DNA from: an uncultured Bacteroidales bacterium
Lineage (GTDB): Bacteria > Bacteroidota > Bacteroidia > Bacteroidales > FEN-979
DNA: 64,000 bases
Direction: 5' to 3'
Assembly (NCBI GenBank): GCA_903945175.1
Contig: CAJAUM010000022.1
Span: 62,001 to 126,000, forward strand
Notes under the pieces: generated by a model
The model's database searches: none
What the model saw: the letters and a program-made list of their open reading frames with translations, nothing else
Told to the model about the DNA's origin: nothing
Made by a program: the position numbers and the translations under genes
Shown here: positions 5,351 to 50,457 of the stretch, in pieces
How positions within the stretch are numbered: the first letter of the stretch is position 1
How the letters are laid out: each line of letters opens with the position of its first letter

Positions 5351-5399
5351 TCATTGGTCATTGGTCATTGGTCATTGGTCATTGGTCATTGGTCATTGG
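5351..5399. repeat. Seven-copy 7-bp tandem repeat (TCATTGG)n
   Basis: Seven perfect copies of TCATTGG, 49 bp, between sufC and the sufB stop. On the sufB sense (minus) strand the unit reads TGACCAA. The array starts 5 nt past the sufB stop. The same unit recurs behind fumC at 50334-50368 in the matching sense orientation. Confidence 0.97.
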
Positions 5400-5404
5400 T
5401 TTGC

Positions 5405-6853
5405 CTACCCCACGCTTCCCTCCAGGCTGATCGACAACAGTTTCTGGGCCTCCACGGCAAACTCCATGGGCAGCTGCTTTAAAACCTCTTTTGCATATCC
5501 GTTTACAATGAGCCCGATGGCGCTTTCGGCCGAAATACCCCGCTGCTGACAATAAAAAAGCTGATCTTCCGAAATTTTCGAGGTGGTTGCCTCATGCTCC
5601 ACGATCGACGATTTGTTATCAACCTGGATGTAAGGCCAGGTATGGGCCCCGCACCTGGAGCCGAGAAGCAGTGAATCACATTGGCTGTAATTACGCGAAT
5701 TGACTGCGTTTTTTGAAATGCGGACCTGTCCCCGGTAGGAGTTGTTGCTCTTCCCGGCCGAAATTCCCTTGGAGATGATCGTACTCCGGGTATTCTTGCC
5801 CAGGTGAATCATTTTTGTTCCTGTATCGGCTTGCTGATGGTGGTTTGTCACGGCAACAGAATAAAATTCTCCCACCGAATTATCTCCCATCAGGATGCAA
5901 CTCGGATACTTCCAGGTTATGGCCGATCCTGTTTCCACCTGCGTCCAGCTGATCTTCGAATTGCTTCCCTTGCAGATTCCGCGTTTGGTGACGAAGTTAT
6001 AGATTCCTCCCAGCCCGTTCTTATCGCCCGGATACCAATTCTGAACGGTTGAATATTTCACCTCAGCATCCTTCATGGCCACAATCTCAACAATGGCGGC
6101 ATGCAGCTGATTTTCATCGCGCTGGGGGGCTGTGCATCCCTCCATATAGCTGACATAGGCTCCCTCTTCGGCTACGATAAGGGTACGTTCAAACTGCCCG
6201 GTATTGGCAGCATTGATACGAAAATAGGTTGATAATTCCATGGGGCAGCGAACACCTTTCGGAATAAAACAAAAGGAGCCATCACTGAACACGGCGGAAT
6301 TAAGTGCTGCAAAATAGTTGTCGGTGTAAGGAACCACCGATCCCATGTATTGTTTCACCAGGTCAGGATGATTCTGAACTGCCTCGCTGAAGGAGCAGAA
6401 AATGATACCGTGTTTTGATAACGTATCGGAGAAGGTGGTTTTGACTGAAACACTGTCAATCACCGCGTCAACGGCCACCCCCGACAGTTTTTTCTGTTCA
6501 TCGAGCGAAATTCCAAGCTTGGTGAAAGTGGCCAGCAATTCAGGATCAACCTCATCGAGACTTGACAGTTCCCTCTTTCTCTTTGGCGCTGCATAAAAGA
6601 TAATATCCTGAAAGTTGATCGGTTCAATGTCCAGGTGAGCCCATTTGGGCATGGCCATGGTAAGCCAATGGCGATATGCTTTCAAACGGAATTCGAGCAA
6701 GAACTCAGGCTCGTTCTTTTTATTGGAAATATAGCGGATGGTGTCTTCAGAAAGCCCTGTGGGGGCATATTCCATGTCGATATCTGTGAAAAAGCCATAC
6801 TTGTAATCGCCCTGCGTAACTTCATCAAGTATCTTGTTTGCTTCGGATTCCAT
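5405..6853 (-). CDS. sufB: SufB, Fe-S cluster assembly scaffold subunit
   Basis: 482-residue SufB, the main scaffold of the SufBC2D complex. Recognisable blocks are the N-terminal [20 protein letters not shown] region, the central [17 protein letters not shown] block, [16 protein letters not shown], and the C-terminal [20 protein letters not shown]. Conserved cysteines occur in the central and C-terminal beta-helix region (for example the [15 protein letters not shown] segment). It is the first gene of the suf operon. The ATG at 6853 lies about 60 bp downstream of a TATCTTTG -7 box, with a 14-bp palindrome between. Confidence 0.97.
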
Positions 6854-6896
6854 CGATTAGCTTTTTATAATAAATCGTATCATGTTTTTACCTGTA

Positions 6897-6910
6897 TGTA
6901 AGGTCTTACA
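6897..6910. promoter_or_regulatory. Palindrome near the suf transcription start (candidate operator)
   Basis: TGTAAG-GT-CTTACA, two perfect 6-bp arms around a 2-bp centre. It lies just downstream of the predicted transcription start of the sufB operon, where a bound repressor would block initiation. The regulator is unknown. Confidence 0.4.
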
Positions 6911-6920
6911 AATCGACAAG

Positions 6921-6928
6921 CAAAGATA
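6921..6928 (-). promoter_or_regulatory. Predicted -7 box of the suf operon promoter
   Basis: On the minus strand this reads TATCTTTG, a perfect match to the Bacteroidota TAnnTTTG -7 element. No clear -33 TTTG is visible at the expected spacing. It predicts a leader of roughly 60 nt before sufB. Confidence 0.5.
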
Positions 6929-6969
6929 CAATAATTTAAGTATTGGAATGCCTGATTCGATATTTAGCT

Positions 6970-7003
6970 TTTGTAATTAATTTCAGGAATTTTTATAATT
7001 TCG
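6970..7003 (+). promoter_or_regulatory. Possible promoter of the sigma-54 regulator gene
   Basis: TTTG at 6970-6973 and TAATTTCG at 6996-7003, separated by 22 bp. This resembles the Bacteroidota -33/-7 pair with one mismatch in the -7 box. The gene starts at 7042. Confidence 0.3.
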
Positions 7004-7041
7004 TATGTTCAAACTGAATATGATTTTATCGTAAAAAATCA

Positions 7042-8430
7042 ATGAATCAAAACGCCCTTTCAATCATAATTCTTGATGACGATATGTCAATTTCGGCGGC
7101 TTTGAGACATTTTTTATCTGAATACCTTCATCATCATGCCATCTCTTTCGGTCGTCCATCCGAAGCCCTGGCGTCCATAAAACTTTCGGTGCCCGATATC
7201 CTTATCTGCGACCTTGATCTTCCAGAGACTGATGGCATTTCGTTTATAAAGATGATAAAGGAATTACCCGGGAAACAACCAGAGATCATCATTATTACGG
7301 GATATGGGGAGAAATTGAATGCCATCCAATGCCTCAGGCTTGGTGCCATTGATTTTTTAGAAAAGCCCTTCCCTCTCGAGGTTTTGAAGGCCAGTGTGGA
7401 CCGGGCAGCCAAATTCATCGATGCAAAAGGCAAACAATCAGAAAAACAGCAGGTGGCCAGGGATACGGTCAAAGTAACGGATAAGCATGAAACAGAGATA
7501 GTTGGAAAGAGTAAAGCGATGGAAAAAATCCAGCTATTGATCGAAAAAATTGCTAAAACAAATGATACTTCTGTTCTGATTACAGGAGAAACAGGAACAG
7601 GGAAAGAGGTAATTGCCCGGCATATTCATAGATTAAGCCACCGGAAATCCCACCATTTTTATGCGAAAAACTGTGCTGCTGTTCCGGAACAACTTTTTGA
7701 AAGTGAATTTTTCGGGCATGTCAGGGGCTCATTCACCAACGCAATCAATGACCATAAAGGGTGGTTTGAGATGGCCCAGAACAGCACATTATTACTTGAC
7801 GAAATCAGCATGCTGCCTATGTCGATGCAGCCAAAACTCCTGCGTGTTCTCGAAGAAAAAAACCTGAATAAGGTCGGAAGTTCAAAGAATATTCCCCTGA
7901 ATGTACGTGTAATTACTGCCTCCAATACTGACCTTCAGGGTTTATGCGTTGAAAACACATTCAGAACGGATCTCTATTACCGCCTGAATATTTTCGCCAT
8001 CCATATTCCCCCTCTGCGCGATCGGAAGGAGGATATTCCCCTCCTTTTTGACCATTTTACCAGCCAGGCGGCCCAGCTGCATCACAAGGACCCTGTAAGG
8101 ATCCAGCGGCAGGCTATGAATATGCTGATTGAATATCCATTCCCGGGAAATGTCCGCGAATTAAAAAACATAGCCGAACGGATCGTTATCCTGAACGATG
8201 AACCCCGGATAACCGTCAAAACATTGGAATCAGTCTTATTTCCGGGCAACCGGCTTGATCATCGCCCTGTAGCAGCGAACCACGGTATCGCACGTCAGGA
8301 AGCTGACCTCATCGTCGACGCCTTGAGACAATCAGAGAACGTCATTGCCAGAGCAGCCAGGTTACTACACATTACGGATCAATCATTACTTAGAAGAATA
8401 AAGAAATTTGGGATTACAATCCCTGGCTAA
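7042..8430 (+). CDS. Sigma-54-dependent response regulator (NtrC type)
   Basis: 462 residues: receiver domain (about 5-125, phospho-acceptor D57 in CDLDLP), AAA+ sigma-54 activator domain (about 152-385) with Walker A GETGTGKE at 182-189 and Walker B LLLDEIS at about 250-256, and a C-terminal Fis-type helix-turn-helix (about 415-460, ending in DQSLLRRIKKFGI). The loop that contacts sigma-54, normally GAFTGA, reads GSFTNA at 229-234, a degenerate form. It is the first gene of a signalling cassette; a kinase gene follows after 149 bp containing a sigma-54-like promoter and an upstream dyad, its likely target. The signal is unknown. Confidence 0.92.
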   Translation: MNQNALSIIILDDDMSISAALRHFLSEYLHHHAISFGRPSEALASIKLSVPDILICDLDLPETDGISFIKMIKELPGKQPEIIIITGYGEKLNAIQCLRLGAIDFLEKPFPLEVLKASVDRAAKFIDAKGKQSEKQQVARDTVKVTDKHETEIVGKSKAMEKIQLLIEKIAKTNDTSVLITGETGTGKEVIARHIHRLSHRKSHHFYAKNCAAVPEQLFESEFFGHVRGSFTNAINDHKGWFEMAQNSTLLLDEISMLPMSMQPKLLRVLEEKNLNKVGSSKNIPLNVRVITASNTDLQGLCVENTFRTDLYYRLNIFAIHIPPLRDRKEDIPLLFDHFTSQAAQLHHKDPVRIQRQAMNMLIEYPFPGNVRELKNIAERIVILNDEPRITVKTLESVLFPGNRLDHRPVAANHGIARQEADLIVDALRQSENVIARAARLLHITDQSLLRRIKKFGITIPG

Positions 8431-8433
8431 CAC

Positions 8434-8474
8434 ATCTTCCGGATTCGTAATTAATTCTTACGATTATGGAAGAT
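8434..8474. promoter_or_regulatory. Imperfect 17-bp dyad, candidate enhancer site for the sigma-54 regulator
   Basis: Outer arms ATCTTCC (8434-8440) and GGAAGAT (8468-8474), inner arms CGTAA (8446-8450) and TTACG (8458-8462), 7-bp centre; 14 of 17 positions pair. It begins 3 bp after the regulator's stop and its centre is about 108 bp upstream of the predicted sigma-54 start site, a normal enhancer distance. There is no T-tract, so a terminator is less likely. Confidence 0.45.
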
Positions 8475-8535
8475 TATCGTTTAAAACTGGACTTGTTCTA
8501 TACATATTTATTTGATTATCATTTCTTTATATTTA

Positions 8536-8551
8536 TGGCATGTTTTTTGTA
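8536..8551 (+). promoter_or_regulatory. Sigma-54 -24/-12-like promoter before the PAS/GAF kinase
   Basis: TGGCATGTTTTTTGTA: the GG and the second G are spaced exactly as in the TGGCAC-N5-TTGCA consensus, with C-to-T changes at the end of the -24 block and at the -12 GC. The predicted start is near 8562, 18 nt before the ATG at 8580. Confidence 0.45.
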
Positions 8552-8579
8552 AATGAGAAACTTTAAATTTTTTTAATTC

Positions 8580-11500
8580 ATGCACGTCAGCCCCTCCATC
8601 GATAATGTCCTGATCAAAGCACTCAACAGTTTTGATGATTACGTTTTTCTTCTTGACGAGCAGGGGATTATTATTTTTGCAAATATCGCATCAGAAAAAA
8701 AACTTGGTTATACACAGGAGGAGTTTTCAGGGATGAATGTCCTTGATGTTCATCCGGTCGATCAGCGAACTCAGGCAGGCATTATTGTGCAGAACATGCT
8801 TGCAGGAACTGAATCTGTATGCCCGATCCCGTTGATTACCAAATCAGGGGAAAAGGTCCCTGTTGAAACCAAGGTATCGTTCCTTGATCTGAATGAAAAA
8901 AAATATATTCTCGGTATTTCAAGAGATATCTCAAGATGGATAAACTCCAATCATCAACTGTTTCAGTCGGAAGAAAAATTCAAAAAATCGTTTGAGTTAA
9001 GTTCCCGGATGATGGCCATCAGTGATCTCCATACCGGAGAGTATATCGATGTAAATGAACAATTTACGATGACAACTGGTTTTGAACGCCATGAGGTCAT
9101 TGGAAAGTCATCAACCGACCTGAATCTATTTAAAAATCCATCAAGGACATATCTGATTGATGAACTAAAGAAGGGGAAACCTGTCAGGGGAGAAGAATTT
9201 GAGATTTATCTCTCCAGAAAAGATCAAACCATTCTCTGTTTATTTGATGCGATCATCTTCGAATCAGATAACCACACATACCTGATCACTGTTGCAGAAG
9301 ATATCACCGAAAAGAAGAAAAACGAACTGGCCCTTGCAACCAGTCAGAAACAGCTAAGCCAGGTCCTTGACGGGGCAAATGATGGGTTTTGGGATTGGAA
9401 TATTCAGACGGGAGAGGTCGAATTCAGTTCGCGATGGGCGGAAATGATCGGGTACAAACTCAATGAACTCGAGCATACTGTAAAATTTTGGGAAGACATC
9501 ATCCATCCGGATGACAAAACATTTGTTTTTGCCGAAATTGCGAAGCATCTGGAGGGCAAAACCAAACGATATCAATCGGAACACAGGGTAAAAGCGAAGG
9601 ATGGCACATGGGTATGGATACTCGACCGCGGTAAAATCGTTGAATTTGACCAAGCGAAGCAGCCCCTGAGGATGGTCGGGACCCACTCAGATATCACGGA
9701 AAAAAAGCTTGCTGAGGAAAAATTACTCTACCGGGAATCATTCGAGAAGCTTATAAACGAGGTTGCCACGACCATGATCAACATTCCCTTGCCCGGGATT
9801 GATGATCAGGTTGAAGTTCTACTTGAAAAAACAGGCAAGTTCATCGGGGTCGACCGGGCTTATGTGTTTTTAATGGATGCATCTGAAACAGAGATATCTA
9901 ACTCCCATGAATGGTGCAAAGAGGATATTACTCCACAAAAAGAAAATCTGCAAAACATTCCCGTTTCAATGATGCCCTGGTGGATGAATAGGATTTCAGA
10001 GGATCAATCGATCAACATTGAAGATGTAGATAAAATGCCTACTGAAGCCTCTGTCGAAAAGGAGATATTGCAAGCCCAGGAAATCAAGTCGTTGATCGTG
10101 GTGCCATTGATGAACAAACAAAGGGTGATTGGCTTTGTCGGATTTGATGCCGTAACGGAATACAGAAAGTGGGATAGTGACACTGAATTGTTGCTGAGGA
10201 GCGCGGTTATTCCTATTACCAATGCCCTCCAGAGAAAGGAGAGCGAATCGGCCATTGAAAATTATAAAAATCATCTGCAGTCGCTCATTAAAGAGCGCAC
10301 AAGTGAGCTTGAAGCCAGTTATAAAGCATTGAATGACTCCCTTGGCAAACTGGCAAAACAAAATGATGAGCTTGTCAAGTTCAAAACCATTGCAGACAAA
10401 GCAAATTATCCCATATTGCTTTTATCATCCGATGGATTGGTCATCTATTCAAACAAGATGATTTCTCAAATGGCGGCTTGTCCCGAGCAACAACTTTCAA
10501 AATGTAATTTCATTGAGGAGTTCGTTGATCATGAGGGTCCGAATTACAACAAATTTTCGCAATTCATTAAGCGCCGGTCCGATATATCTTCCCTTGAAAT
10601 CACGATCGTAAACAGGCATGGGAAAAAAACTCCCGCATTGGCAAATGCCTCTGCCATCTTTGATAAAGGAGGATTCCTTATGTTTTTCGTAGTATCATTT
10701 ACTGATCTTACTGAGCGTAAAAAAGGAGAGCAGGAGCTTAAGGTATTGTGGCAGGCTGCCGACCATTCAGCAAGCGGAATTATGATAACCGACAATGACA
10801 ACAAAATCTTATACATCAATCAGCAGTATGCACTAACCTGCGGTTACACTTTCAAAGAGCTGTTGGGGAAAACTCCCAAGATGCTAAGGTCATTCAAGCA
10901 TACCGAGGAATTCTATCATCAGCTCTCTCAAAGCATTAAATCGGGCGTGACGTGGAAGGGAAGGATTATAAACAAAAAGAAAGATGGCACCGATTACACT
11001 GAAGATGATGTGATTTCTCCGGTACGGAACGCCGATGGTAAAATCACCAATTTCATTGCAATCACCAGAGATGTCACCCATGAATTGCGACGTGAGCAGG
11101 AGATCCAGCAATCAGAAAAACTCCGTTCGCTCGGGACCCTGGCCGGAGGTATCGCCCATGATTTTAACAACATTTTGCAAATTGTGCAGGTATATACCGA
11201 GCTGATTGAATTCCAGGAGAAAAAGAACACCCAGATACATGACAGCATCAAGGAAATTATACGGGCATGTACCAGAGGGAAAAGCATGGTGAATAACATT
11301 CTTACATACAGCCGGCAGGGTCCGAATGAGATGGCTCCTTATAGTTTTGATTTTCTGGTGAAGGAAATTATCAATATTGCCAGGCCGATCTATCCAAGTT
11401 CTGTTGAAATTCTGAAAAACATTGAACCTACCGGCACCGTATATTGCGACCCGGTACAAATTCAACAGATCATCTTTAATCTTTTCAACAACTCGATTGA

Positions 11501-11813: not shown

Positions 11814-11817
11814 ACCT

Positions 11818-12204
11818 ATGAAAAAAATTCTGTTTGTCGATGATGAAAAAGCTTTTCGTGATGCATCGCGGAAGCTACTCGAAGGTGCAGGCTATATCGT
11901 AGATACTGCGATGGACGGAGTGGATGCAGAATCCTTTCTGGAAAACAATGTGTATGATTTCATCATTACCGACATTGTGATGCCGCGTAAAGAGGGAATT
12001 GAACTCATCCTCTACATAAAACAAAACAATATACAATCCAAAATCATTGCCATTTCCGGCGGGGGCAGGGCAACAGCTTATGAATACCTGACCATGGCAA
12101 AGGCCTTCAAGGCCGATGCCATTCTCTCAAAACCCTACTCGTTTTCCGAGTTGATATCTACACTAAAACGGTTATCATCAGATAGTCCAAATCCTGAAAG
12201 TTAA
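11818..12204 (+). CDS. Stand-alone receiver domain protein (CheY-like)
   Basis: 128 residues made only of a receiver domain, phospho-acceptor D52 in TDIVMP, acidic pocket DDE near residues 8-10, conserved lysine in SKPYSF. I use the ATG at 11818, four bases after the kinase stop, rather than longer starts inside the kinase gene, because MKKILFVDDE is the normal receiver N-terminus. With no output domain it probably serves as a phosphate shuttle or sink between the kinases on either side. Confidence 0.9.
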   Translation: MKKILFVDDEKAFRDASRKLLEGAGYIVDTAMDGVDAESFLENNVYDFIITDIVMPRKEGIELILYIKQNNIQSKIIAISGGGRATAYEYLTMAKAFKADAILSKPYSFSELISTLKRLSSDSPNPES

Positions 12205-12229
12205 TCGGATAGAGGCAAAAACAATTATA

Positions 12230-14350: not shown

Positions 14351-14456
14351 TTAATTTTTCCGTACAAATCCTTCCGGACTGGATAATCTCATTGAATTGT
14401 ATTAATTTAGCGCCCAGGAAATCACAATCGATTTCTTTTTTAAACAATTGATAATC

Positions 14457-14801: not shown

Positions 14802-14841
14802 CAAGCAGTAAACCAATTGAATTAACTTAATTCCAAACGTT

Positions 14842-14943: not shown

Positions 14944-14954
14944 CGTAGCCTTCA

Positions 14955-16022
14955 ATGTACGAAAAAAAAGATAACCGCTCCGCCGACAACCAACCAAAGC
15001 TGACCTCTTTAACCGAGCTCGGGGAGTTTGGACTGATTGACCGGCTCACAAAAAACGTAAAATATCACCATCCTGAGACATTGATGGGTATTGGTGATGA
15101 CGCGGCCGTGATCGAGGCAGGAGACAAGGTCATCCTGTTTTCTACCGACTTATTGGTTGAAGGGATTCATTTTGACCTGACCTACATGCCCTTTAAACAT
15201 CTGGGTTATAAGGCGGCCGTGGTCAACATCTCTGATATTGCAGCCATGAACGGCGTTCCAAAGCAAATGACTGTTTCGTTGGCTGTGTCCAGCCGGTTTT
15301 CGGCCGAAGCGCTGGATGAACTTTACGCGGGCGTCGTGATGGCTTGTGAAAAATACAAGGTCGACCTGGTTGGTGGCGACACCAGCTCGAATGTCAAGGG
15401 GCTGATGATCTCCGTTTCCATCTTAGGAGAGGCTAAAAAAGAGGAGGTCACCTACCGCAGCGGCGCCAGATCCGGCGATCTGCTTTGCGTTACAGGCGAC
15501 CTGGGCAGTGCCTATATCGGACTGTTCATACTTGAACGCGAGAAATCTGTATTCAAGGTTGATCCCAACATGCAGCCGGAACTCTCCGGATTCGATTACC
15601 AGATTGGGCGACAGTTGAGACCTGAGGCCCGAACCGATGTCCGCAATCTCCTCATTGGGATCGGGGTGAAACCAACATCCATGATTGATATTTCCGACGG
15701 ATTGGCTTCGGAGATACTCCATCTTTGCAAACAATCAGGTGTTGGTTGCAAACTTTTCGAAGGAAAAATCCCAATTGACGAATATACGAAGGAGCTCGCA
15801 AAGGAATATAAAATCATCCCGAGTGTAGCAGCCCTGAGCGGTGGGGAAGATTATGAACTTTTGTTCACTGTAAAACAGGAAGATTACGAAAAAATAAAGG
15901 ACATTGTGGGAATTACCATCATCGGCCATATGACCGCCGCATCCGAGGGAAAACTGATGATCACCCCCGATGGAAAGGCCATCCCGATTACCGCTCAGGG
16001 ATGGGATGGAATGCGGAAGTGA
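14955..16022 (+). CDS. thiL: Thiamine-monophosphate kinase
   Basis: 355 residues of the PurM/ThiL ATP-binding fold. It phosphorylates thiamine monophosphate to the diphosphate cofactor. Visible motifs are GIGDDAAVI near residue 46, STDLLVEGIHFDL, VNISDIAAMNG, the GGDTSS motif, IDISDGLASEILH and SGGEDYELLFT, all characteristic of ThiL. It starts 11 bp after the 33-residue gene. The TGA stop is itself the first TGA of a heptamer repeat at 16020-16040. Confidence 0.95.
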   Translation: MYEKKDNRSADNQPKLTSLTELGEFGLIDRLTKNVKYHHPETLMGIGDDAAVIEAGDKVILFSTDLLVEGIHFDLTYMPFKHLGYKAAVVNISDIAAMNGVPKQMTVSLAVSSRFSAEALDELYAGVVMACEKYKVDLVGGDTSSNVKGLMISVSILGEAKKEEVTYRSGARSGDLLCVTGDLGSAYIGLFILEREKSVFKVDPNMQPELSGFDYQIGRQLRPEARTDVRNLLIGIGVKPTSMIDISDGLASEILHLCKQSGVGCKLFEGKIPIDEYTKELAKEYKIIPSVAALSGGEDYELLFTVKQEDYEKIKDIVGITIIGHMTAASEGKLMITPDGKAIPITAQGWDGMRK

Positions 16023-16040
16023 CGAATGACGCGTGACGCG
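16020..16040. repeat. Three-copy heptamer repeat starting in the thiL stop
   Basis: TGACGAA then two copies of TGACGCG, in the thiL sense direction. The first TGA is the thiL stop; the next two TGAs fall in the +1 and +2 frames. It fills the gap between thiL and the convergent threonine aldolase gene. Confidence 0.85.
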
Positions 16041-16043
16041 TTT

Positions 16044-39424: not shown

Positions 39425-39426
39425 CA

Positions 39427-39458
39427 CCCTGTTACCCTGTTACCCTGTTACCCTGTTA
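39427..39458. repeat. Four-copy 8-bp tandem repeat between two tlpA-like genes
   Basis: CCCTGTTA four times; on the coding strand TAACAGGG. The first TAA is the stop codon of the upstream gene (39456-39458) and later TAAs fall in the other two frames. The last unit supplies AGGG just before the next gene's ATG at 39424. Confidence 0.95.
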
Positions 39459-40592
39459 CTTTATTACTTTCTTCGCAGCCTTTTTTTCAGGAGCCACCGG
39501 GCCTAAGATCTCTTCAAGCTTTTTTATCAGATCCTCCCCACGCAGGTTGCGGCCAACGATTTTTTGATCTTTATCGAGCAGTACATTGGCTGGGATGGAG
39601 TTGACGCCATAGAGCTTTCCGGCAGCATTGGCCCACCCTTTCAGATCTGATACCTGGGGCCAGGTAAGTTTATCATCCCTTACCGCCTTGAGCCATTTCT
39701 CCCGGTGCTGATCAAAAGAACAGCCAAGCACATCGAAACCTTTCTTTTGGAATAACTGGTATGCTTTTACTACGTTGGGATTCTCCGCGCGGCATGGGCT
39801 GCACCAGGAGGCCCAGAAATCAACCAGCAACACCTTCCCCTTCAGGGTTGACAGGGTTACAGGCTTTCCGGTACTGTCATTCATGGTAAAATCAGGCGCG
39901 ATCTGACCAATTTCAACACGGTTCAGAATTTCAATGCGTTTCTTAAGCACCTGGACATATTGGGAACCGTTCAGGCTGGTATCCATGGCGGCCACAAGTT
40001 CTTTCAGATCAGCGAGCTCAAATTGCCAGCTGTTACGAACAACGAGGTACGGAGAAACCACAGTCTTATTATTTGCTTTGGCAAAATCCTGAAGCTGCTT
40101 CTTCATCTCCTTATCCAACTCATTTGAAATGGAATCGGTCCGTTTCATGCTTGCCGTATCGTTGGTCTCCTTGGCTTTTTTCCATTCCATGTAAACCACC
40201 TCCATCTTTTCATTTATGGTCTCATTCAGTGTCAGGTATTGCTGGTATATATCATGGGAAGCAGATCCTGCAATGGTTGATTTATCGATACTGTCAACAT
40301 AAATCTGAACCTTGATCTTAGCATTTTCGATAAACACGGGAAGCATAATTTGTTTTTCCTCCATGACGATGTGCCACATTTCAGGAATAGCTGCTGCTCC
40401 TTTAAATGAAAATTCCCCTTGATCAATTTTGGATGAATCAACTTTAACCCATTGATCCACATCGAATTTTTGAAGATAGATCATACCGGAATCGGCTCCG
40501 GTAATATGTCCGCTGATGGCAAATCGGTCTTTATTGCCTGTGCAGGATGCGAGGATAACCCCGATAACAAGGATTAGAATATATTTTTTCAT
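39456..40592 (-). CDS. DUF4369/TlpA disulfide-reductase lipoprotein
   Basis: 378 residues. A lipoprotein signal with lipobox LASC (cysteine about residue 17), a DUF4369-type N-terminal beta domain (about 22-110, ISGHITGADSGMIYLQKF), a helical linker with many charged residues, and a C-terminal thioredoxin domain (about 230-365) with active site CSPC in DFWASWCSPCRAENP. Such envelope lipoproteins reduce or isomerise disulfides. The ATG at 40592 has a strong AGGAGG Shine-Dalgarno 6 bases upstream, which decides against a start 10 codons earlier. It ends in a low-complexity lysine-rich tail. Confidence 0.9.
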   Translation of the reverse strand: MKKYILILVIGVILASCTGNKDRFAISGHITGADSGMIYLQKFDVDQWVKVDSSKIDQGEFSFKGAAAIPEMWHIVMEEKQIMLPVFIENAKIKVQIYVDSIDKSTIAGSASHDIYQQYLTLNETINEKMEVVYMEWKKAKETNDTASMKRTDSISNELDKEMKKQLQDFAKANNKTVVSPYLVVRNSWQFELADLKELVAAMDTSLNGSQYVQVLKKRIEILNRVEIGQIAPDFTMNDSTGKPVTLSTLKGKVLLVDFWASWCSPCRAENPNVVKAYQLFQKKGFDVLGCSFDQHREKWLKAVRDDKLTWPQVSDLKGWANAAGKLYGVNSIPANVLLDKDQKIVGRNLRGEDLIKKLEEILGPVAPEKKAAKKVIK

Positions 40593-40665: not shown

Positions 40666-40684
40666 CAAGGAAAATCCAGCCATT

Positions 40685-43600: not shown

Positions 43601-44536
43601 GGAAACATCGGTCAGTTTGATAACCGGCAATGGGACAAAAAAGGACGAATCACTGGTTTGGAAAAGGGATATATCAAACGCAATGAAGTGGCATGGTCTT
43701 CAACCCACCTGCACAAGGATACCCTCAACATCCCATATCAGTATGCCTATATTTTCAAATATGCCCTGGAAGCCTCGCCTGTCAGCGGAACCCTTCAGCT
43801 TCCTGAAAATGATGCCATTAAAATCTTCGCCATCTCCGTTGCCGACAATCCTTCAGATCAGATTCGCCCCGCTTGGCCGCTGTATGATGATTTCACCGAC
43901 CGGAAAGGGATGGCCTTGAAACTGCCGAAAAGTTACGTCGATGACAAGATGACCCCTGCTGCACTTTTTGCTGTGACCCGTAAAAAGAATCTTTCCGATC
44001 TTCCGGCCCGTCTTACCATGAAAGATTATGGCGACATCCACCAACCCAACGGGGTTACAGTGACCTATCACTTCAGTGGGGCCGATACCACCATGAAGGG
44101 GTCAATCCGAAACGGAATGAATGTGTCTGCCATCAATGATGGCATGTATGAGTTGCTGCCTGGCGATTCGCTCAACGACAAATGGTCGGAAAGTGGGGAA
44201 GGGCGCATCCTGATGGACCTGCAGAAGGAGATTGAACTTGACAGCATACATCTTTTCACGACCCAGGATACAAAGCGGGGCCCCCAGTCATTTTCGCTTT
44301 GGGGCGCTTCAGGCGATAAAAGCCCATCCACAAGCGGCGATCCCAAAGCTGCGGGATGGAGTTATATCCTGCTTGCCTCGCCCGAAGATATCTGGGGAAA
44401 CAGCAAAGCCCTTTACACCATTATTCCTCTGAAGGATAAATCGAAACAGTTCCGCTACCTCCTCTGGGTAAGTGAAGATTCTCCTCATGGGCCCTACTAC
44501 TTCAGGGAAGTGGATGTATTTGAAAAACAAAAATAG
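40685..44536 (+). CDS. Glycoside hydrolase family 38 alpha-mannosidase
   Basis: 1283 residues with a signal peptide (about 1-23). The N-terminal GH38 catalytic domain shows the metal-binding HLDTEWRW motif (about residue 49) and the likely nucleophile D162 in LLPDCFGFQAH. The alpha-mannosidase middle domain follows (EHSSGSLTSQSYMKRWNRKNE), then the GH38 C-terminal beta domains (about 490-850). About 400 further residues at the C-terminus form beta-rich modules I cannot name, making it longer than a typical GH38. Predicted to release alpha-linked mannose from glycans in the periplasm or outside. An AraC regulator follows after 23 bp. Confidence 0.92.
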   Translation: MKYVLSLTGMLLLSLTINLAHAQSEAGKIPAPKYNLSIDPVLYTVGYAHLDTEWRWDYEATINECIKNTLDENFQRLEKYKPYVFTFSGARRYKMMKEYYPEKYERVKKYIAQGRWFVGGSSVDECDANVPSPESVIRQVLYGNGYFRSEFGKESVDFLLPDCFGFQAHLPSVLAHAGLKGFSTQKLSWGSAAGIPFNIGNWIGPDGKGVVAALNATSYTSDIKKRLDTSSYWVNRVMENGKKYGVFADYRYYGVGDEGGAPREEDVKNAVESLNHPDQKIKVYLSSSDQLFRDLTEEQKKQLPSYSGDLLLTEHSSGSLTSQSYMKRWNRKNEQLALAAESMAVMADWLGGLKYPQRSLNEAWWLVLGSQMHDIVPGTSLPKAYEYAWNDEILALNKFSACLESSAGAVIRAMDTQGKGVTLVVYNPLAIARKDVVEAEILYGEETPKAVKVFDGTNVEIPSQIILTSKNSLRILFSASVPSLGLAVFDVQPVKDPAAYRTALAASNKTLDNEFLKVTVDSDGNISSIIDKKLGKELLSAPSRLEFQKEHPEFWPAWNMDWKDRRNPPVEYVKGPANITLLENGPVRATLKIERNARNSNFTQYIQLAAGKENLIVKNTISWQSRGVSLKVSFPLTASNTEATYNLGLGTELRANNHEKKYEVPSREWFDLTDKSGSFGVTIVEDCKFGSDKPNDKTLRLTMLFTPSANFYHDQATQDWGIHEITYGIYSHKGDWRTGLSEWQGRSLNQPLRVFQASQHRGTLGKSFSFARVSAPQVDIRSIKKAENGKEMIIRLQELIEKDIQNVEITLPAKIIKAWEVDGQERLIGEAILKNGKLLVDMKQFALRSFALQLDPPADKLPEPASVELPLPFDEDGISGEKNKKNGRFDDRGLSIPAELLPESITVDGIQFNFGPKADGKNNLLACKGQKITLPKTGNFNHVYILAAALSDTSGTFKVGNLKTPLRIQKYDGNIGQFDNRQWDKKGRITGLEKGYIKRNEVAWSSTHLHKDTLNIPYQYAYIFKYALEASPVSGTLQLPENDAIKIFAISVADNPSDQIRPAWPLYDDFTDRKGMALKLPKSYVDDKMTPAALFAVTRKKNLSDLPARLTMKDYGDIHQPNGVTVTYHFSGADTTMKGSIRNGMNVSAINDGMYELLPGDSLNDKWSESGEGRILMDLQKEIELDSIHLFTTQDTKRGPQSFSLWGASGDKSPSTSGDPKAAGWSYILLASPEDIWGNSKALYTIIPLKDKSKQFRYLLWVSEDSPHGPYYFREVDVFEKQK

Positions 44537-44559
44537 CACAAACTTATCGGAAAACATCG

Positions 44560-45381
44560 ATGGAGAAGCCGTTCGATATGTTTGTCATTACAGAAGAGGT
44601 GGTTGATGAAATCCGCAGTCATCCGACAAAACCACACCGCCATGTATACGAGGAGTTACTCATCATCACCCGGGGAAATCCATCGCATTTCATCGACTTT
44701 TTTGAGGAGACACTATGCGCCCCGGTAGTAATCTACGTTGCCCACAGCAAGGTTCATGAATTCATGCCCGACAAGGAGACGCGCGGCTGGTGCATTCGCT
44801 ACCGCAACGATTTTATCCGGGAGAGTAATTTTCACTTTTATTCAAATTATCTCGACCAAATCAACTTCACCTTCGACCCGGCTGACTGCAGGCAAAAGAT
44901 CGGGATTCTGTGCGAACTGATCCTTTCTGAATACCAGGAGAATCCAGGCAGTCCCGATATATACCGCCACCTTTTTTCGGCGCTGCTTGCGAAACTGGAG
45001 GCAGAAGGGAAACACCATCTTCCTGATGAGAAGGAGTCCCGCACACCCGTACACATAGCATTCCGGAATTTCCTGCAAATACTTGAAGACAATTTTAAGC
45101 GACCGCTTGGCGTTGGATTTTATGCCGAAAAAATGAATACTTCGGTTCGGAATTTAAACCTGGTTTGCCAAAAAGCTTTTGGAAAAAGCGTTTCTGAGAT
45201 CATTGAAACACGAAAACTGATCGAAGCACGGCGGCTGTTGCTCAACTCCCCGATGAATGTATCAGAGATCGGATATGCGCTCGGATACAGCGAAAAATCA
45301 TATTTCACACGGGTTTTCAGTAAAAAAACCGGACTCACCCCTACCGATTTCCGAGCTGCCATGCAGCCCACCCCTTCCTAA
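44560..45381 (+). CDS. AraC-family transcriptional regulator
   Basis: 273 residues. N-terminal cupin-like ligand domain (about 15-160, HPTKPHRHVYEELLIITRG) and a C-terminal double helix-turn-helix (about 175-270) with the family pattern FGKSVSEIIETRKLIEARRLL, NVSEIGYALGYSEKSYFTRVFSK and GLTPTDFR. It follows the GH38 gene closely on the same strand, so it may sense a sugar or a GH38 product, but the cupin domain is not diagnostic. Confidence 0.92.
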   Translation: MEKPFDMFVITEEVVDEIRSHPTKPHRHVYEELLIITRGNPSHFIDFFEETLCAPVVIYVAHSKVHEFMPDKETRGWCIRYRNDFIRESNFHFYSNYLDQINFTFDPADCRQKIGILCELILSEYQENPGSPDIYRHLFSALLAKLEAEGKHHLPDEKESRTPVHIAFRNFLQILEDNFKRPLGVGFYAEKMNTSVRNLNLVCQKAFGKSVSEIIETRKLIEARRLLLNSPMNVSEIGYALGYSEKSYFTRVFSKKTGLTPTDFRAAMQPTPS

Positions 45382-45469
45382 AAGTACCACCCTTTTTCCG
45401 TTTTGTATTACCTCCCCCATCTCTGGATGTTGCATTTTTGCACCATCAATCGACCAACCAGCATAATCC

Positions 45470-46288
45470 ATGAACCTGAAAGAATTTGAAAAATCGACCG
45501 GATCTGCCGCCAACACTGATTTGATGCCGGTTCTTTTCGTAGGTCATGGCAGCCCGATGAATGCAATCGAACAAAATGAATTCACCGCCGGATGGCATTC
45601 CATGGTGGAATCAATCACAATACCCCGCGCCATACTTTGTATCTCAGCTCACTGGGAAACAGACGGAACCTTGGTCACCGCCATGCCTCAGCCACGCACG
45701 ATCCATGACTTCTTCGGATTCCCTGATCAACTTTTCAGGGTACAATACCCGGCGCCCGGAAGTTTGCAGACCGCTTTTGAAACCCGCGACGAAGTACATT
45801 CTGTCGATATGAGACTTGATCAAACCTGGGGCCTGGATCATGGATGCTGGAGCGTTCTAAGGCATATGTTCCCGGATGCAACCATCCCTGTGGTTCAGCT
45901 CAGCCTCAATTACAACCTCTCCCCTGCTGCCCACTTCAACCTGGCAACGGAACTCTCCCGCCTGCGACGCAAAGGCATTCTGGTGATCGGCAGCGGCAAC
46001 ATGGTGCACAACCTCCGCATGATAAACTGGCACAGCCCCGATGGCGGAGACGAATGGGCCACGGCTGCCAATGAAATATTAAAGAAGCTGATCCGGGAGG
46101 GCAACCATAAAAAACTGGTTGATTATACCTTGCTTGGCAAGGAAGTTCAGCTCGCAGTTCCCACTCCGGAGCATTACCTGCCCTTACTTTATGTTCTGGC
46201 AATGCAGGAAAACAATGAACAGATTTCGTTTTTTAACGACAAAGCTGTATTCGGCTCAATATCAATGACTTCAATCAAAATCAATTAA
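45470..46288 (+). CDS. Extradiol dioxygenase, 4,5-DOPA dioxygenase-like (YgiD/LigB family)
   Basis: 272 residues of the class III extradiol ring-cleavage superfamily. The metal ligands are suggested by the histidines in FVGHGSPMNAI, CISAHWET and the later WGLDHGCWSVL block, and an SGNMVHNLR motif is present. Bacterial members open catechol-type rings in vitro; the natural substrate is unknown. It begins a plus-strand run with yceI, recX and prfB. Confidence 0.88.
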   Translation: MNLKEFEKSTGSAANTDLMPVLFVGHGSPMNAIEQNEFTAGWHSMVESITIPRAILCISAHWETDGTLVTAMPQPRTIHDFFGFPDQLFRVQYPAPGSLQTAFETRDEVHSVDMRLDQTWGLDHGCWSVLRHMFPDATIPVVQLSLNYNLSPAAHFNLATELSRLRRKGILVIGSGNMVHNLRMINWHSPDGGDEWATAANEILKKLIREGNHKKLVDYTLLGKEVQLAVPTPEHYLPLLYVLAMQENNEQISFFNDKAVFGSISMTSIKIN

Positions 46289-46312
46289 ATCAATAACCTA
46301 AATTAAAATCCT

Positions 46313-46909
46313 ATGAAACGTGAAATTAAATTTTTAATCGCGATGGTAATCGGAATGATGATCATCAGCAAAAGTGAAGCTCAGACCAAATGGACACTTG
46401 ACAACGCACACACAGGTGTTAAATTTACCGTAACACATCTTGTCATTTCAGAAATAGAAGGAGCTTTTAAATCCTTTACAGGTTCGATGACCGCCACAAA
46501 ACCTGATTTTTCTGATGCCCAGATCGACTTCTCCGTTGATATCGCCAGCATCAATACCGACAATGAAATGCGTGATACCCATTTGAAAGCGGATGATTTT
46601 TTCAATGCTGAAAAATTTCCCAAGATGATCTTTAAAAGCATTTCCATGAATAAACTCTCCGGCAATAAATACGAACTGACAGGCAATCTGACGATTCGCG
46701 ATGTCACCAAAAAGGTGAAGTTTGCTGTGACCTATGGTGGAACCGTGAAGGACCCATGGGGCAACGTCAAAGCAGGATTTAAAGCAACTGCAACCATCAA
46801 TCGCCTGGAATATGGCCTGAAATGGAATACTGTTACCGAAGCTGGCGGAGCAGTTGTAGGTTCGGATGTAACCATCATCATCAATGCAGAATTTGCTCAG
46901 GCAAAATAA
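46313..46909 (+). CDS. YceI-family periplasmic lipid-binding-like protein
   Basis: 198 residues with a signal peptide (about 1-23, cut near SEAQ). The YceI lipocalin-like barrel has TKWTLDNAHTGVKFTVTHLVISEIEGAF, the TDNEMRDTHLKADDFFNAEKFP block and GNLTIRDVTKKV. Family members bind isoprenoid-type lipids in the periplasm. The gene is 24 bp behind the dioxygenase gene. Confidence 0.93.
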   Translation: MKREIKFLIAMVIGMMIISKSEAQTKWTLDNAHTGVKFTVTHLVISEIEGAFKSFTGSMTATKPDFSDAQIDFSVDIASINTDNEMRDTHLKADDFFNAEKFPKMIFKSISMNKLSGNKYELTGNLTIRDVTKKVKFAVTYGGTVKDPWGNVKAGFKATATINRLEYGLKWNTVTEAGGAVVGSDVTIIINAEFAQAK

Positions 46910-46948
46910 CAGGACCCACTAATTTCATCCGTGTTAAAGAATCAGGCC

Positions 46949-47437
46949 ATGCAACAATCAGGAATGGACGGTTTTTCAAACAATGATCCTGCTGAAATCT
47001 ATGAAAGGATATGCCGCTACTGTGCTTACCAGGAGCGGTGTACCTTTGATGCAGCGCAGAAGCTGGGCGAATGGAAGGTGCCGGCAGGTAAGGCCGGCCT
47101 GGTCATTAAAAGGCTAAAGACAGATGGGTATATAGATGATGACCGGTTTGCACGACTTTTTGTCCGTAGTAAATTCCGAAACAACAAATGGGGCCGGGTT
47201 AAACTGGGTTACGAGCTGAGAGGTCGCAAAATACCTGAAAAAATAATCAGTGAAGCGCTGAAGGAGATCAGCGACGAAAATTACAGGCAAACCATCCGGA
47301 ATTTGATTCTCAAAAAAAAGTCTGAAATAAAACCGGGAAAAAACTTGACCATACGCGAAAAAATTATCACTTTTGTAATTGGCAAAGGATTTGAATTTGA
47401 CCTGGCTGCTGAAGTACTAAAAGAACTTAAACTCTGA
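46949..47437 (+). CDS. recX: RecX-family regulator of RecA
   Basis: 162 residues of three-helix repeats. RecX binds RecA filaments and limits recombinase activity. Motifs seen: ICRYCAYQERCTFDAAQKL, DGYIDDDRFARLFVRSKFRNNKWG and KIPEKIISEALKEI. I use the ATG at 46949; a GTG six codons upstream is also in frame. Its stop is one base away from the prfB ATG, so the two are coupled. Confidence 0.9.
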   Translation: MQQSGMDGFSNNDPAEIYERICRYCAYQERCTFDAAQKLGEWKVPAGKAGLVIKRLKTDGYIDDDRFARLFVRSKFRNNKWGRVKLGYELRGRKIPEKIISEALKEISDENYRQTIRNLILKKKSEIKPGKNLTIREKIITFVIGKGFEFDLAAEVLKELKL

Positions 47438-47438
47438 C

Positions 47439-48528
47439 ATGATAGCACAAGACCAACTGAAAGACCTTAAGACAAGGCTCGACGTCTTGAGGAGGTACCT
47501 TTGACATCGAAAGGAAACTTACCCAGATAGCTGAAGAAGAAAAACTGTCGCAGGCCCCCGATTTCTGGAACAATCCCAAAGCTGCGGAATTGGCCCTGCG
47601 TGCCATCCGTGATAAAAAACTCTGGACAGATGCATTTTTAAAGGCTGTTTCGAGTCATGATGACCTGATGGTCATGTGGGATTTTCACATCCAGGGTGAA
47701 GGGACCGATGAGGAAGTTGAAGAACATTACAAAGAGACCCTGGAGCTCATCGAAGAATTGGAATTCCGAAACATGCTGAGTGGCGAGGAGGACAAATTGG
47801 GCGCCATTGTGCAGATCAATTCTGGAGCAGGAGGTACCGAAAGCCAGGACTGGGCGCAAATGCTCATGCGCATGTATATACGGTACGGCGAGCGGAGCCG
47901 GTACAAAATCACAGAGGTGGACTTTCAGGAGGGGGATGTGGCCGGAATCAAATCGGTTACCATCGAATTTGACGGCGATTATGCTTATGGATACCTCAAG
48001 GGCGAAAATGGCGTGCACCGGCTGGTGCGCCTTTCACCCTTCGATTCCAACCACAAGCGTCATACTTCCTTTGCCTCCGTCTATGTTTATCCAATTATCA
48101 ATGATGACATCGTGATCGACATCAACCCGGCCGAAATCAGCTGGGACACCTTCCGGAGCAGTGGTCCCGGCGGGCAAAATGTCAACAAAGTGGAGACGGC
48201 CGTTCGTTTGAAACACGAACCTTCAGGCATTGTCATCGAGTGTCAGGAAACCCGTTCACAAGGTCAAAACCGTGAGAAAGCTTTGAAACTGTTGAAGTCA
48301 CAATTATACGAAATCGAACTCCGCAAACAACGGGAGAAGATCGCTGTAATCGAAAGCGGGAAGAAAAAGATCGAGTGGGGTAGTCAGATCCGCAGTTATG
48401 TGCTGCATCCTTACAAAATGGTGAAGGACCTGCGTACGGGCCAGGAAACATCGGATACCCAGGCCGTGCTCGATGGCGACCTTACCGCCTTTATTAAATC
48501 ATATTTGATGGAATATGGAAATGCATGA
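47439..48528 (+). CDS. prfB: Peptide chain release factor 2, with programmed +1 frameshift
   Basis: RF2 recognises UGA and UAA stops. The first 21 codons from ATG 47439 end in an in-frame TGA at 47502-47504. A +1 shift at CTT-TGA-C continues from GAC at 47503 to 48528, giving 362 residues in total, normal for RF2. The stop-recognition tripeptide SPF is in [12 protein letters not shown], and GGQ for peptide release is at residues 244-246. The frameshift lets low RF2 levels raise RF2 synthesis. It follows recX by one base, and an ArsC-like gene lies 11 bp downstream. Confidence 0.97.
47490..47505 (+). promoter_or_regulatory. RF2 autoregulatory frameshift site
   Basis: Internal Shine-Dalgarno AGGAGG at 47490-47495, a 3-nt spacer, the slip codon CTT at 47499-47501 and TGA-C at 47502-47505. 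Spacing equals that of the classical E. coli prfB site. Confidence 0.95.
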
Positions 48529-48538
48529 AATCGTAAAT

Positions 48539-48883
48539 ATGTTTACAATCTATCATAACCCACAGTGCAAAAAGTCCCGTGCGGGGTTGCAATTTCTCCA
48601 GGCATCAGGTAAAGAATTTAACGTGGTTGAATACCTGAAGCATCCATTGACAGAGAAGGAGATGGAAACATTGCTTATAAAGTTGAATAAAAAACCGGCA
48701 GAACTGATACGTATGCAGGAGGCCTATTTCAAACAAAACCTCAGAGGGAAACATTTTGAAGATCATGAATGGGTGAAGATCATCCTCCAGAATCCGAAGC
48801 TCCTCCAGCGCCCGATCGTAGAAAGCAAATACAAGGCGGTGGTTGGCGACCCGGTTGAAAACATTGAATCCTTGTTAAAATAA
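48539..48883 (+). CDS. ArsC/YffB-like thioredoxin-fold protein
   Basis: 114 residues of the ArsC family. The N-terminal HNPQCKKSRAGLQFL contains the reactive cysteine position, and the LQRPIVESKYKAVVGDP block is the substrate-loop region of arsenate-reductase-like proteins. It could be an arsenate reductase or a Spx/YffB relative; no other ars gene is near, so the role is open. I start at the ATG at 48539, 11 bp after the prfB stop, because MFTIYHNPQC is the family start; an upstream start would overlap prfB. Confidence 0.85.
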   Translation: MFTIYHNPQCKKSRAGLQFLQASGKEFNVVEYLKHPLTEKEMETLLIKLNKKPAELIRMQEAYFKQNLRGKHFEDHEWVKIILQNPKLLQRPIVESKYKAVVGDPVENIESLLK

Positions 48884-48934
48884 TATCCGGGACTGACCTC
48901 CTTCATTCCGTCATCAACGTAAAACCACATACAC

Positions 48935-50332
48935 ATGAAAACACGCATCGAAAAAGACACCATGGGCCCCATCGAGGTTGCCATGGACAAGTACTGGGGA
49001 GCCCAAACCCAGCGTTCGCTCACCAATTTCAAGATCGGAGAACCCGGTTCAATGCCAAAAGAGGTGATCCTTGGTATGGCGGTGCTTAAAAAAGCGGCGG
49101 CCATGGTAAATACCGACCTGGGTGTGCTCTCTGCCGAGAAAATGGATCTGATTGTGAAGGTGTGCGATGAGATCCTGGCTGGAAAACTGGATGATCAATT
49201 CCCACTCGTAATCTGGCAAACCGGTTCAGGAACCCAAACAAACATGAACCTCAACGAGGTGATTGCCAACCGGGCCCATGTACTGAACGGAGGTGAGCTG
49301 GGTGGAGAGGGAAAGACTGTGATTCACCCCAATGATGACGTGAATAAGTCACAATCTTCAAACGACACCTTCCCTGCAGCCATGAGCATTGCTGCCTACA
49401 AGATGGTCACCGGCACAACCATTCCCGGAGTCGAATTGCTGAAAGAAACGCTTGCAAAGAAATCTGAAGAATTCAGGGAAATCGTAAAAACCGGCAGGAC
49501 GCACCTGATGGACGCCACACCGCTTACCCTTGGTCAGGAATTTTCAGGTTATGTTTCCCAACTCGCACACGGGCTGAAAGCCCTTCAAAACACCCTCCTC
49601 CATCTCTCGGAACTTGCGCTTGGAGGAACGGCTGTAGGTACCGGACTCAATGCGCCCAAAGGCTATGATGTGCTGGTGGCCAGGAAAATTGCTGAACTGA
49701 CCGGGCTGCCTTTCATCACCGCCGACAACAAATTTGAATCGTTATCGGCACATGATGCCATGGTTGAAACATCGGGAGCGCTGAAAACACTTGCTGTCAG
49801 CCTGATGCATATAGCCTCCAACATCAGGTTGCTGGCTTCCGGCCCACGTTGCGGCATCGGGGAACTCATGCTTCCCGAAAATGAACCTGGCTCAAGTATT
49901 ATGCCCGGGAAGGTGAATCCGACCCAGCCTGAAGCCATGACCATGGTTTGTGCGCAGGTTTTGGGCAACGATGTGGCCATCAACATCGGCGGTATCAGCG
50001 GCCATTTCCAGCTCAATGTTTTCAAGCCCCTGCTGATCTCCAACCTGCTGATGTCGGCAAGGTTATTAGGCGATGCCTGCGTTTCATTCAACGACAACTG
50101 CGCCCTCGGCATTGAACCGAACATGGCGGCCATCAATAAAAATCTGGAAAATTCCCTGATGCTGGTTACGGCGCTGAATCCGCATATCGGCTATGATAAT
50201 TCTGCCAAAATAGCCAAGAAAGCACACAAGGAGCACAAAACCCTGCGAGAAGCTACCCTTGAACTCGGATTGCTAACCGATGAAGAGTTCACCCGCATCG
50301 TAGATCCGAAGAAGATGACGGGACCGAAGTGA
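48935..50332 (+). CDS. fumC: Class II fumarate hydratase
   Basis: 465 residues. Hydrates fumarate to L-malate in the TCA cycle without an Fe-S cluster. Motifs are the N-terminal [19 protein letters not shown], the [14 protein letters not shown] block, [16 protein letters not shown], and the signature [13 protein letters not shown] with the catalytic serine loop. Length and start are normal. The TGA stop is followed after one base by the heptamer tandem repeat shared with the sufB 3' end. Confidence 0.97.
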
Positions 50333-50333
50333 A

Positions 50334-50368
50334 TGACCAATGACCAATGACCAATGACCAATGACCAA
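50334..50368. repeat. Five-copy 7-bp tandem repeat (TGACCAA)n after fumC
   Basis: Five perfect copies of TGACCAA, then a degraded TGACAAG. It is the same unit as the repeat at 5351-5399, and in the same orientation relative to its upstream gene. Confidence 0.97.
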
Positions 50369-50413
50369 TGACAAGTGATTGAGGAATTTACGAATTAACT
50401 ATACGATTTCTTC

Positions 50414-50457
50414 GTCACGCGTCACGTGTCACCTGTCACGCCTTTTTTCGTCACGTG
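50414..50457. repeat. GTCACnn heptamer repeat at the 3' end of the GT39 gene
   Basis: GTCACGC, GTCACGT, GTCACCT and GTCACGC at 50414-50441, a short T-rich break, then GTCACGT overlapping the stop codon TCA (minus strand TGA) at 50451-50453. On the gene's sense strand the units read as TGAC plus three bases, the same heptamer type as behind thiL. Confidence 0.85.

Follow-up and report, generated by a model that had tools for sequence, protein, structure and literature searches.

Stop-adjacent heptamer and octamer arrays of a Bacteroidales genome as probable relatives of hairpin elements resembling 23S rRNA intervening sequences

Introduction

Among the systems described so far, the intervening sequence (IVS) in the 23S rRNA of Coxiella burnetii comes closest to the repeats considered here: it has terminal inverted repeats, an S23p open reading frame (ORF), excision by RNase III and, at its 5′ end, tandem heptamers that vary in number between strains (PMC4990558). 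We analysed a stretch of 64,000 nucleotides (the window; C22:62001-126000 in our numbering, contig CAJAUM010000022.1) from the 4.41-Mb draft genome, in 155 contigs, of an uncultured Bacteroidales bacterium, in which five tandem arrays of 7- or 8-bp units lie at or near stop codons. Elsewhere in this genome and its relatives, comparable arrays flank, in inverted orientation, genes for the 23S rRNA intervening-sequence protein (IVP, or S23p; PF05635), a four-helix bundle for which the source cited above gives no known function. Akin to the C. burnetii IVS, these elements hold an IVP gene between stem-forming terminal inverted repeats and contain tandem heptamers (PMC4990558); unlike it, they lie outside rRNA, their arms are themselves heptamer or octamer arrays, PF05635 is matched 1-22 times per genome in the family, and arrays without a gene are far commoner. 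We consider it probable that the window arrays are arms, or gene-less leftovers or relatives, of such IVS-like hairpin elements at the 3′ ends of genes.

Intergenic heptamers dispersed over a genome have been described as GGGAATC in Xanthomonas and GGGGA(C/T)T in Nostoc, and the same account gives no accepted origin for the dispersed heptamer arrays of several bacterial groups (PMC4692102). As described there, and as in our material, they lie near the stop when on the coding strand and farther off when on the other strand, are few between divergent genes and, in Xanthomonas, form inverted pairs. The arrays of the window's genome thus share with them the 7-bp unit, the many dispersed loci in gaps and the proximity to stops on the coding strand (8-bp units being common here too); they differ in that the described units are G-rich, and the passages of PMC4692102 that bear on them state no link to IVP genes. 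Xanthomonas campestris has an IVP protein, XCC0516 (2gsc; PMC4990558). Among the papers listed in our own literature search, none joined intergenic heptamer arrays to IVP genes, which is weak evidence of novelty.

Results and discussion

IVP genes lie between inverted arrays

The layout of a full element is seen in a comparison of two sister species, G010 and G006 (G000 denotes the window's own genome, G0nn its relatives, C a contig and L a fetched stretch), which are 92.6-96.8% identical over five main aligned blocks. Behind thiL, G010 carries an insertion of ~500 bp made up of octamers, an ORF and inverted octamers, the ORF being a PF05635 gene (G010:C96:19365-19682); at the same site G006 has, by eye, a short hairpin without a gene. 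PF05635 was found in 83 of 100 relatives searched and in none of 14 control genomes.

To score such flanks, 250 nt on each side of a gene were compared, a score of at least 20 counting as a pass. In a first set, 22 of 34 IVP ORFs passed in inverted orientation, against 7 of 1161 other genes, while direct-orientation flanks were found for 2 of 34 and 11 of 1161, respectively. In an enlarged set, mostly from this order, inverted flanks were present at 43 of 59 loci and direct ones at 6 of 59; without three tiles that had been picked for an array, whose ORFs score above the Pfam cut-off, the inverted count was 40 of 56. The 1161 control genes predate the growth of the IVP set from 34 to 59, and the set itself (62 ORFs, with three duplicates removed) combines the strongest PF05635 matches with 20 stretches picked by genome and is not a random sample. 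The periods of the arms were mostly 7, 8 or 14. Six PF05635 loci of the own genome were scored, of which five passed.

The best partner of a left arm was its own right arm in 33 of 59 loci, and 73% of own pairs scored at least 20, compared to 2.8% of mixed pairs. Akin to the terminal inverted repeats of an IVS, such arms can form a stem: the RNA of the element on C15 of the own genome folds at -271.6 kcal/mol versus -211 ± 8 for 20 shuffles (z -7.6). The genes inside full elements are PF05635 above cut-off; two of the IVP proteins scanned gave a weak second Pfam hit, below cut-off, to bAvd. PF05635 is described as resembling Avd of diversity-generating retroelements (PMC10053308). The IVP may not be the sole type of gene in such elements, since in G013:C29 (L222:12036-12416, minus strand) a PD-(D/E)XK nuclease gene (PF13366) lies between inverted repeats like CGCAGATTTGCGCGGATTAAAGCG, with an inverted score of 40. 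We take PF13366 to be the family often called GxxExxY.

With regard to their surroundings, the gene upstream of the IVP element was co-directional in 42 of the 50 loci with a called gene, nine further loci giving no call. Of the 31 left arrays that could be placed, 24 started no more than 15 nt from the upstream stop and 12 before the end of that stop, a count in which some of the called upstream genes may be ORFs running into the array. The left arms of IVP elements thus likewise open as an array at a sense-strand stop, and in this light the initial annotation's suggestion of a 3′-end element built from the stop codon is better supported than its other proposal, which we treat below.

One site illustrates both features. 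Seven IVP loci, from the genus, the family and the order, lie behind one and the same long gene, which in G010 encodes, according to Pfam, the fumarate reductase/succinate dehydrogenase flavoprotein and is followed by the gene for the iron-sulfur protein. In six of the seven (all except G061) the coding sequence ends in AAATAG, the TAG opening the first unit (TAGGGAT, TAGCGAT, TAGGCAT or TAGCCAT), and in the same six the arms pair with their own partner at scores of 23-31.5. G010, G006, G031 and G024 have similar units, with cross-pairing of arms at 19.5-26.5; G000 and G025 have differing units and pair with the other loci at 19.5 at most. Arms that change together may reflect selection for the stem or, equally, template switching in which one arm serves to copy the other.

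Dispersed arrays share units with IVP arms of the same genome

The own genome was sampled to ~25% (1.10 Mb, 22 contigs), namely eight contigs on which repeats had been seen or the window lies (C9, C10, C13, C15, C21, C22, C25 and C31; 489 kb; ‘repeat-chosen’) and 14 others taken by number and length (610 kb; ‘blind’). Relatives were covered by short stretches from one draft genome per species. Genes were called with a home-made ORF caller based on codon usage and arrays with a simple period scan.

Considering only arrays more than 400 bp from any IVP ORF, IVP arms of the same genome were matched by 83 of 177 arrays and foreign arms in 87 of 1062 comparisons (Fisher 5e-33). In the own genome, 59 of 110 arrays matched own arms, mainly as TGACCAA (25) and GGTRACAR (24). 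In the blind contigs, 14 of 29 arrays matched own arms, whereas 0, 8, 5, 1, 1 and 0 matched the arms of six other genomes.

Within the window, the sufB and fumC arrays, both built of TGACCAA, match the inverted arms at G000:C110:152934, where the gene is a divergent PF05635 (55 bits, cut-off 33.8), and the TAACAGGG array of the tlpA-like gene matches the IVP arms on G000:C15 (19) and an IVP arm of G003 (26.5). For the array behind thiL the best own-genome arm reaches 11.5, below the threshold of 17, and the best overall is an IVP arm of G013 (18); the array near the GT39 gene matches IVP arms of G008 and G013 and none of its own genome.

Arrays and genes of the window

All five tandem arrays reported in the initial annotation exist, and the neighbouring genes it named agree with Pfam. 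The features concerned are as follows, with the consensus returned by TRF in brackets.

4539..5294, minus strand: ORF of the suf operon downstream of sufB, 251 aa, ABC ATPase (PF00005); we name it sufC by position
5351..5400, minus strand: 7-bp array, TGACCAA x7.1, between sufB and the next suf gene (TRF 5351-5400, TCATTGG x7.1)
5405..6853, minus strand: sufB, SufBD core (Pfam), 482 aa
14955..16022, plus strand: thiL-like gene (AIRS; Pfam), its stop TGA within the first repeat unit
16019..16041, plus strand: 7-bp array, TGACGAA/TGACGCG x3.3, behind the thiL-like gene (TRF 16019-16041, GTGACGC x3.3)
39426..39459, minus strand: 8-bp array, TAACAGGG x4.2, its first unit containing the stop of the tlpA-like gene (TRF 39426-39459, ACCCTGTT x4.2)
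39456..40592, minus strand: TlpA-like gene (AhpC/TSA + DUF4369; Pfam)
48935..50332, plus strand: fumC (Lyase_1 + FumaraseC_C; Pfam)
50332..50372, plus strand: 7-bp array, TGACCAA x5.9, behind fumC, left-hand in the gap and inward-facing (TRF 50332-50372, AATGACC x5.9)
50413..50441, minus strand: 7-bp array, TGACGCG/ACG/AGG x4.1, right-hand and inward-facing (TRF 50413-50441, CGTCACG x4.1)
50451..50457, minus strand: lone CGTGACG unit with the stop of the GT39/PMT gene
50451-52241, minus strand: GT39/PMT gene (PMT_2; Pfam)

The claim that every array abuts a stop codon needs small corrections. The stops of the thiL-like and tlpA-like genes fall within the first repeat unit, as had been stated, and the fumC stop (50330-50332) adjoins its array, yet is not an in-phase unit of it. 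The sufB stop (TAG, 5405-5407) lies 4 nt ahead of the array, and that of the GT39/PMT gene (50451-50453) lies in the single CGTGACG unit, 9 nt off the array. That successive units place stops in all three frames is correct and is an arithmetic consequence of the lengths 7 and 8. The array at 50413-50441 is the inverted partner of the fumC array, but with different units.

An Rfam scan of the window returned no match at gathering score, on which ground a known RNA family was rejected, and the gap behind sufB had no match among phage records at megablast sensitivity, by which a phage origin of that gap was rejected. A reading as Rho sites, suggested by regular YC dinucleotides, was likewise set aside.

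The gaps behind sufB and fumC in relatives

SufB is present in all 19 genomes of the genus and ends at the identical position in each. Within 150 nt behind it, 17 of 19 congeners have at least one array of 7-9-mers, with units that vary, among them the 9-mer CAATGCAGG as well as TGACCAA, ATTTACG, ATGTGATG, CTACTAT and AATGGAC; in some cases two species have a unit in common. In five species (G001, G003, G005, G013 and G015) the arrays detected there have no sense stop. The fumC gap holds an array in 5 of 19 congeners, the first array being of the sense TGAC/TAAC type in each; by eye, the fumC gap of G001 has a degenerate sixth array.

At the level of the order, where 57 genomes had a SufB match, 29 sufB gaps were examined and yielded one octamer array and one 10-mer array. 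In both genomes concerned, G079 and G066, a PF05635 gene lies directly behind sufB. G066 (C4:147034-151640) has two PF05635 genes in one suf operon, one directly behind sufB and one directly behind a second SufB-like match, which on our reading is sufD.

Orientation follows contact with the stop

The orientation counts exclude arrays at contig edges, those in gaps between divergent genes (for the sense test) and those whose TRAC strand was not clear. Among the TRAC-bearing arrays of the own-genome sample, 24 of the 26 in contact with a stop were sense. At greater distances the sense share was 13 of 19 (3-15 nt), 3 of 5 (15-40 nt) and 6 of 12 (beyond 40 nt), or 22 of 36 when pooled (p 0.24), and arrays inside genes were antisense in 17 of 22. 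On the blind contigs, where numbers are small, 5 of 6 touching arrays and 5 of 8 elsewhere were sense. The sense orientation that had been ascribed to the window arrays thus stands for arrays touching a stop (24:2) and not for those elsewhere in gaps (22:14); as the bias is confined to the former, it is contact with the stop that carries it, and there is no genome-wide sense rule.

The initial annotation had also taken sense orientation as a sign that the repeats are not neutral. In a model of random placement, the observed arrays were distributed about 660 gene ends that lack an array. Arrays touching a stop came out sense in 84, 78, 73, 62 and 55% of cases for insertion ranges starting at -30, -15, -9, -3 and 0, since the ORF terminates at an inserted sense array but continues through an antisense one, and non-touching arrays behind the gene were sense in ~50%. 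With the range -30..+60 the model explains the sense bias, its 84% comparing with the observed 24 of 26 at p 0.18. For geometry to account for the whole of this bias, the last codons must be open to insertion. The two versions of the model each have a difficulty. The -30..+60 range expects many antisense, read-through arrays near gene ends, whereas none of the 17 antisense in-gene arrays comes closer than 131 nt to the 3′ end; the version that spares the last codons gives too little, 55-73% sense.

A second bias concerns the gap as a whole. Of 77 arrays from six species, 60 were inward-facing (p 9e-7), as were 29 of the 42 off gene ends (p 0.02) and 13 of the 19 that lie closest to a start codon (p 0.17). 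Pairs of arrays in the same gap were inward in seven cases (one being the IVP element on C15), outward in two and parallel in five.

Abundance and periods

The genome-wide search proposed in the initial annotation confirmed that tandem TGAC/TAAC-type units are widespread in the own genome and in congeners, dinucleotide-shuffled gaps giving no arrays. The pattern TGACNNNTGACNNNTGAC had 277+315 matches in the 4.41-Mb genome versus 34+0 for the backward-read pattern, and GGTRACARGGTRACARGGTRAC had 154+158 versus 0 for the control. In the 1.10-Mb sample, 68 arrays had period 7, 33 had period 8, and ten other periods from 3 to 14 contributed 16; the blind contigs alone gave 18, 6 and 10, respectively. 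Arrays of period 7 or 8 numbered 77 in the eight repeat-chosen contigs versus 24 in the 14 blind ones, and the density in the sample is accordingly inflated by the choice of contigs, whereas the preference for periods 7 and 8 is unaffected. The gaps of another five congeneric species held 22 arrays of period 7, 12 of period 8 and two others (one of 6, one of 9). Of four order-level samples of 60-80 kb, three had no arrays, and G066 had 14 of period 7 and three of period 14.

Hairpin elements or slippage

The architecture of the elements, its enrichment around IVP genes, the sharing of units within a genome and the placement behind stops are direct observations. A full element consists of a left array of 7- or 8-bp units, an IVP gene and an inverted right array with complementary units; its RNA can form a long imperfect stem whose loop holds the IVP gene. 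Its usual site is directly behind the stop of a co-directional gene, also within operons, as between the flavoprotein and iron-sulfur genes or between sufB and the next suf gene. On our reading, arrays without a gene would derive from full elements, and the stem would be cut by RNase III, as in 23S rRNA. The position behind a stop would be where insertions are tolerated, and tolerated insertion together with ORF geometry would produce the sense, stop-anchored look of the arrays.

Several results weigh against this interpretation. The own genome has seven PF05635 matches, one of them short, versus ~120 arrays in a quarter of its sequence; none of the seven is on the window's contig, and the window arrays enclose no such gene. 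Two of the five window arrays (thiL and GT39) have no arm match in their own genome, and the one inverted pair of the window, in the gap between fumC and GT39, gains nothing over shuffles when folded as RNA (z 0.30). The pooled sharing figure is dominated by the own genome, which supplies 110 of 177 arrays and most of the arms, and in G006 none of 18 arrays matches its two IVP arms. The inward bias in the own genome is weak on the blind contigs (9:5) compared to the repeat-chosen ones (40:11). The element on C144 of the own genome scores nearly the same inverted (26) as direct (25.5), and in L336 the polarity of the arms is reversed. Inverted flanks were present at only 5 of 29 IVP loci from outside the order, versus 0 of 37 controls (p 0.013), and among the matches listed an IVP-family ORF was present in only 3 of 114 TGACCAA tiles from other taxa. 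A uniform arm polarity (by L336) and a general adjacency of IVP genes and TGACCAA arrays in other taxa (by the same 3 of 114 tiles listed) are thereby ruled out. An Rfam scan of 57 fetched IVP loci found no rRNA and one tRNA, and in this respect the loci depart from insertions in 23S rRNA.

The strongest competitor, which we consider unlikely though far from negligible, is that the arrays are ordinary heptamer and octamer simple sequence repeats (SSRs) grown by replication slippage in gaps free of constraint, anchored at stops in appearance by ORF geometry, with the IVP genes present in these gaps or their hairpins by chance or as passengers. Heptamer SSRs are described as over-represented in bacteria, and slippage related to the polymerase footprint has been proposed for them (PMC4692102, citing a 2007 study). 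In our data, most arrays are of period 7 or 8, units differ between species in the same gap, and random placement yields up to 84% sense arrays at stops. From slippage alone, however, one would expect neither inverted complementary arms at a single gene family (43 of 59 versus 7 of 1161), nor the sharing of units with IVP arms of the same genome, nor the inward orientation in gaps (60:17), all of which argue for the hairpin elements.

It is improbable that the arrays are repeats of the TAACTGA kind, read as possibly regulatory. Such repeats are reported from Beggiatoaceae, Cyanobacteria and a few Bacteroidetes, and like the arrays here they are stop-bearing heptamers dispersed in one genome (PMC4679880); in that paper's main genome, though, they lie mostly just before start codons, where many of ours lie at stops, and the units here differ between species in the same gap.

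The translational fail-safe proposed in the initial annotation, by which stops in all frames would guard against read-through or frameshift, could appeal to the sense, stop-bearing units of 24 of 26 touching arrays, yet is very improbable, as sense orientation is not kept independent of stop contact (22:14 off the stop, without significant bias), stops are not kept in orthologous gaps (five of 17 array-bearing sufB gaps lack a sense one), and one extra in-frame stop would be enough, making many copies needless.

A possible propagating system

If the arrays are indeed parts or relatives of IVS-like hairpin elements, a further step, which we hold to be rather doubtful and which builds on analogy, would be that IVP genes and arrays form one propagating system. 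In REPIN/RAYT systems, inverted pairs without a gene are dispersed over intergenic gaps and a small number of relatives carry one, and the arrays may work in a similar way: a few gene-bearing hairpins would supply a four-helix-bundle protein whose substrates are array hairpins, in the form of RNA or single-stranded DNA. Through its action in trans, arrays lacking a gene would come to lie at the 3′ ends of genes, and the units amplified would be particular to each genome. The sharing of units is compatible with such dispersal in trans by the protein of full elements. Differences from REPIN/RAYT are that the arms here are tandem rather than single palindromes and that a Pfam scan of IVP proteins found no transposase domain. 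Were the proposal true, one and the same process would have produced the heptamers of Cyanobacteria, Xanthomonas and Beggiatoaceae, and protein-nucleic acid geometry would set the period of 7 or 8 bp.

Independently of it, the statistical link between arrays and IVP genes, with paired inverted arms at 3′ ends, offers a testable common frame, that of hairpin elements which segment mRNAs or move. The IVP family is mentioned in the legend to a figure of a survey on proteins linked to CRISPR (PMC10910872); repeat-based CRISPR scans may catch this family because of its arrays.

Other repeats in this genome and beyond

On C31 of the own genome (1-2300 and 6193-6485), TGACTGA/TGACCGA and GACGGAC/GACAGAC arrays extend to ~390 bp, and the called coding density of the contig is low. 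On C9 (3936-4036), three copies of CGTGATGCGTGACGCGTGACGCGTGAC are spaced by exactly 36 bp inside a called ORF. TGACCAA arrays of 4.7 units were found in at least 114 tiles, from many Cyanobacteria, Mucilaginibacter, Pedobacter, Planctomycetota, Verrucomicrobia, KSB1, Desulfobacteraceae and others. The sets of units seem to differ between species: in some relatives within the family (e.g. G020, G021 and G028) the letter-reversed control CAGTNNN outnumbers TGACNNN, and 9-bp units, CAATGCAGG and CATTATTTG, lie behind the tlpA-like gene in several congeners.

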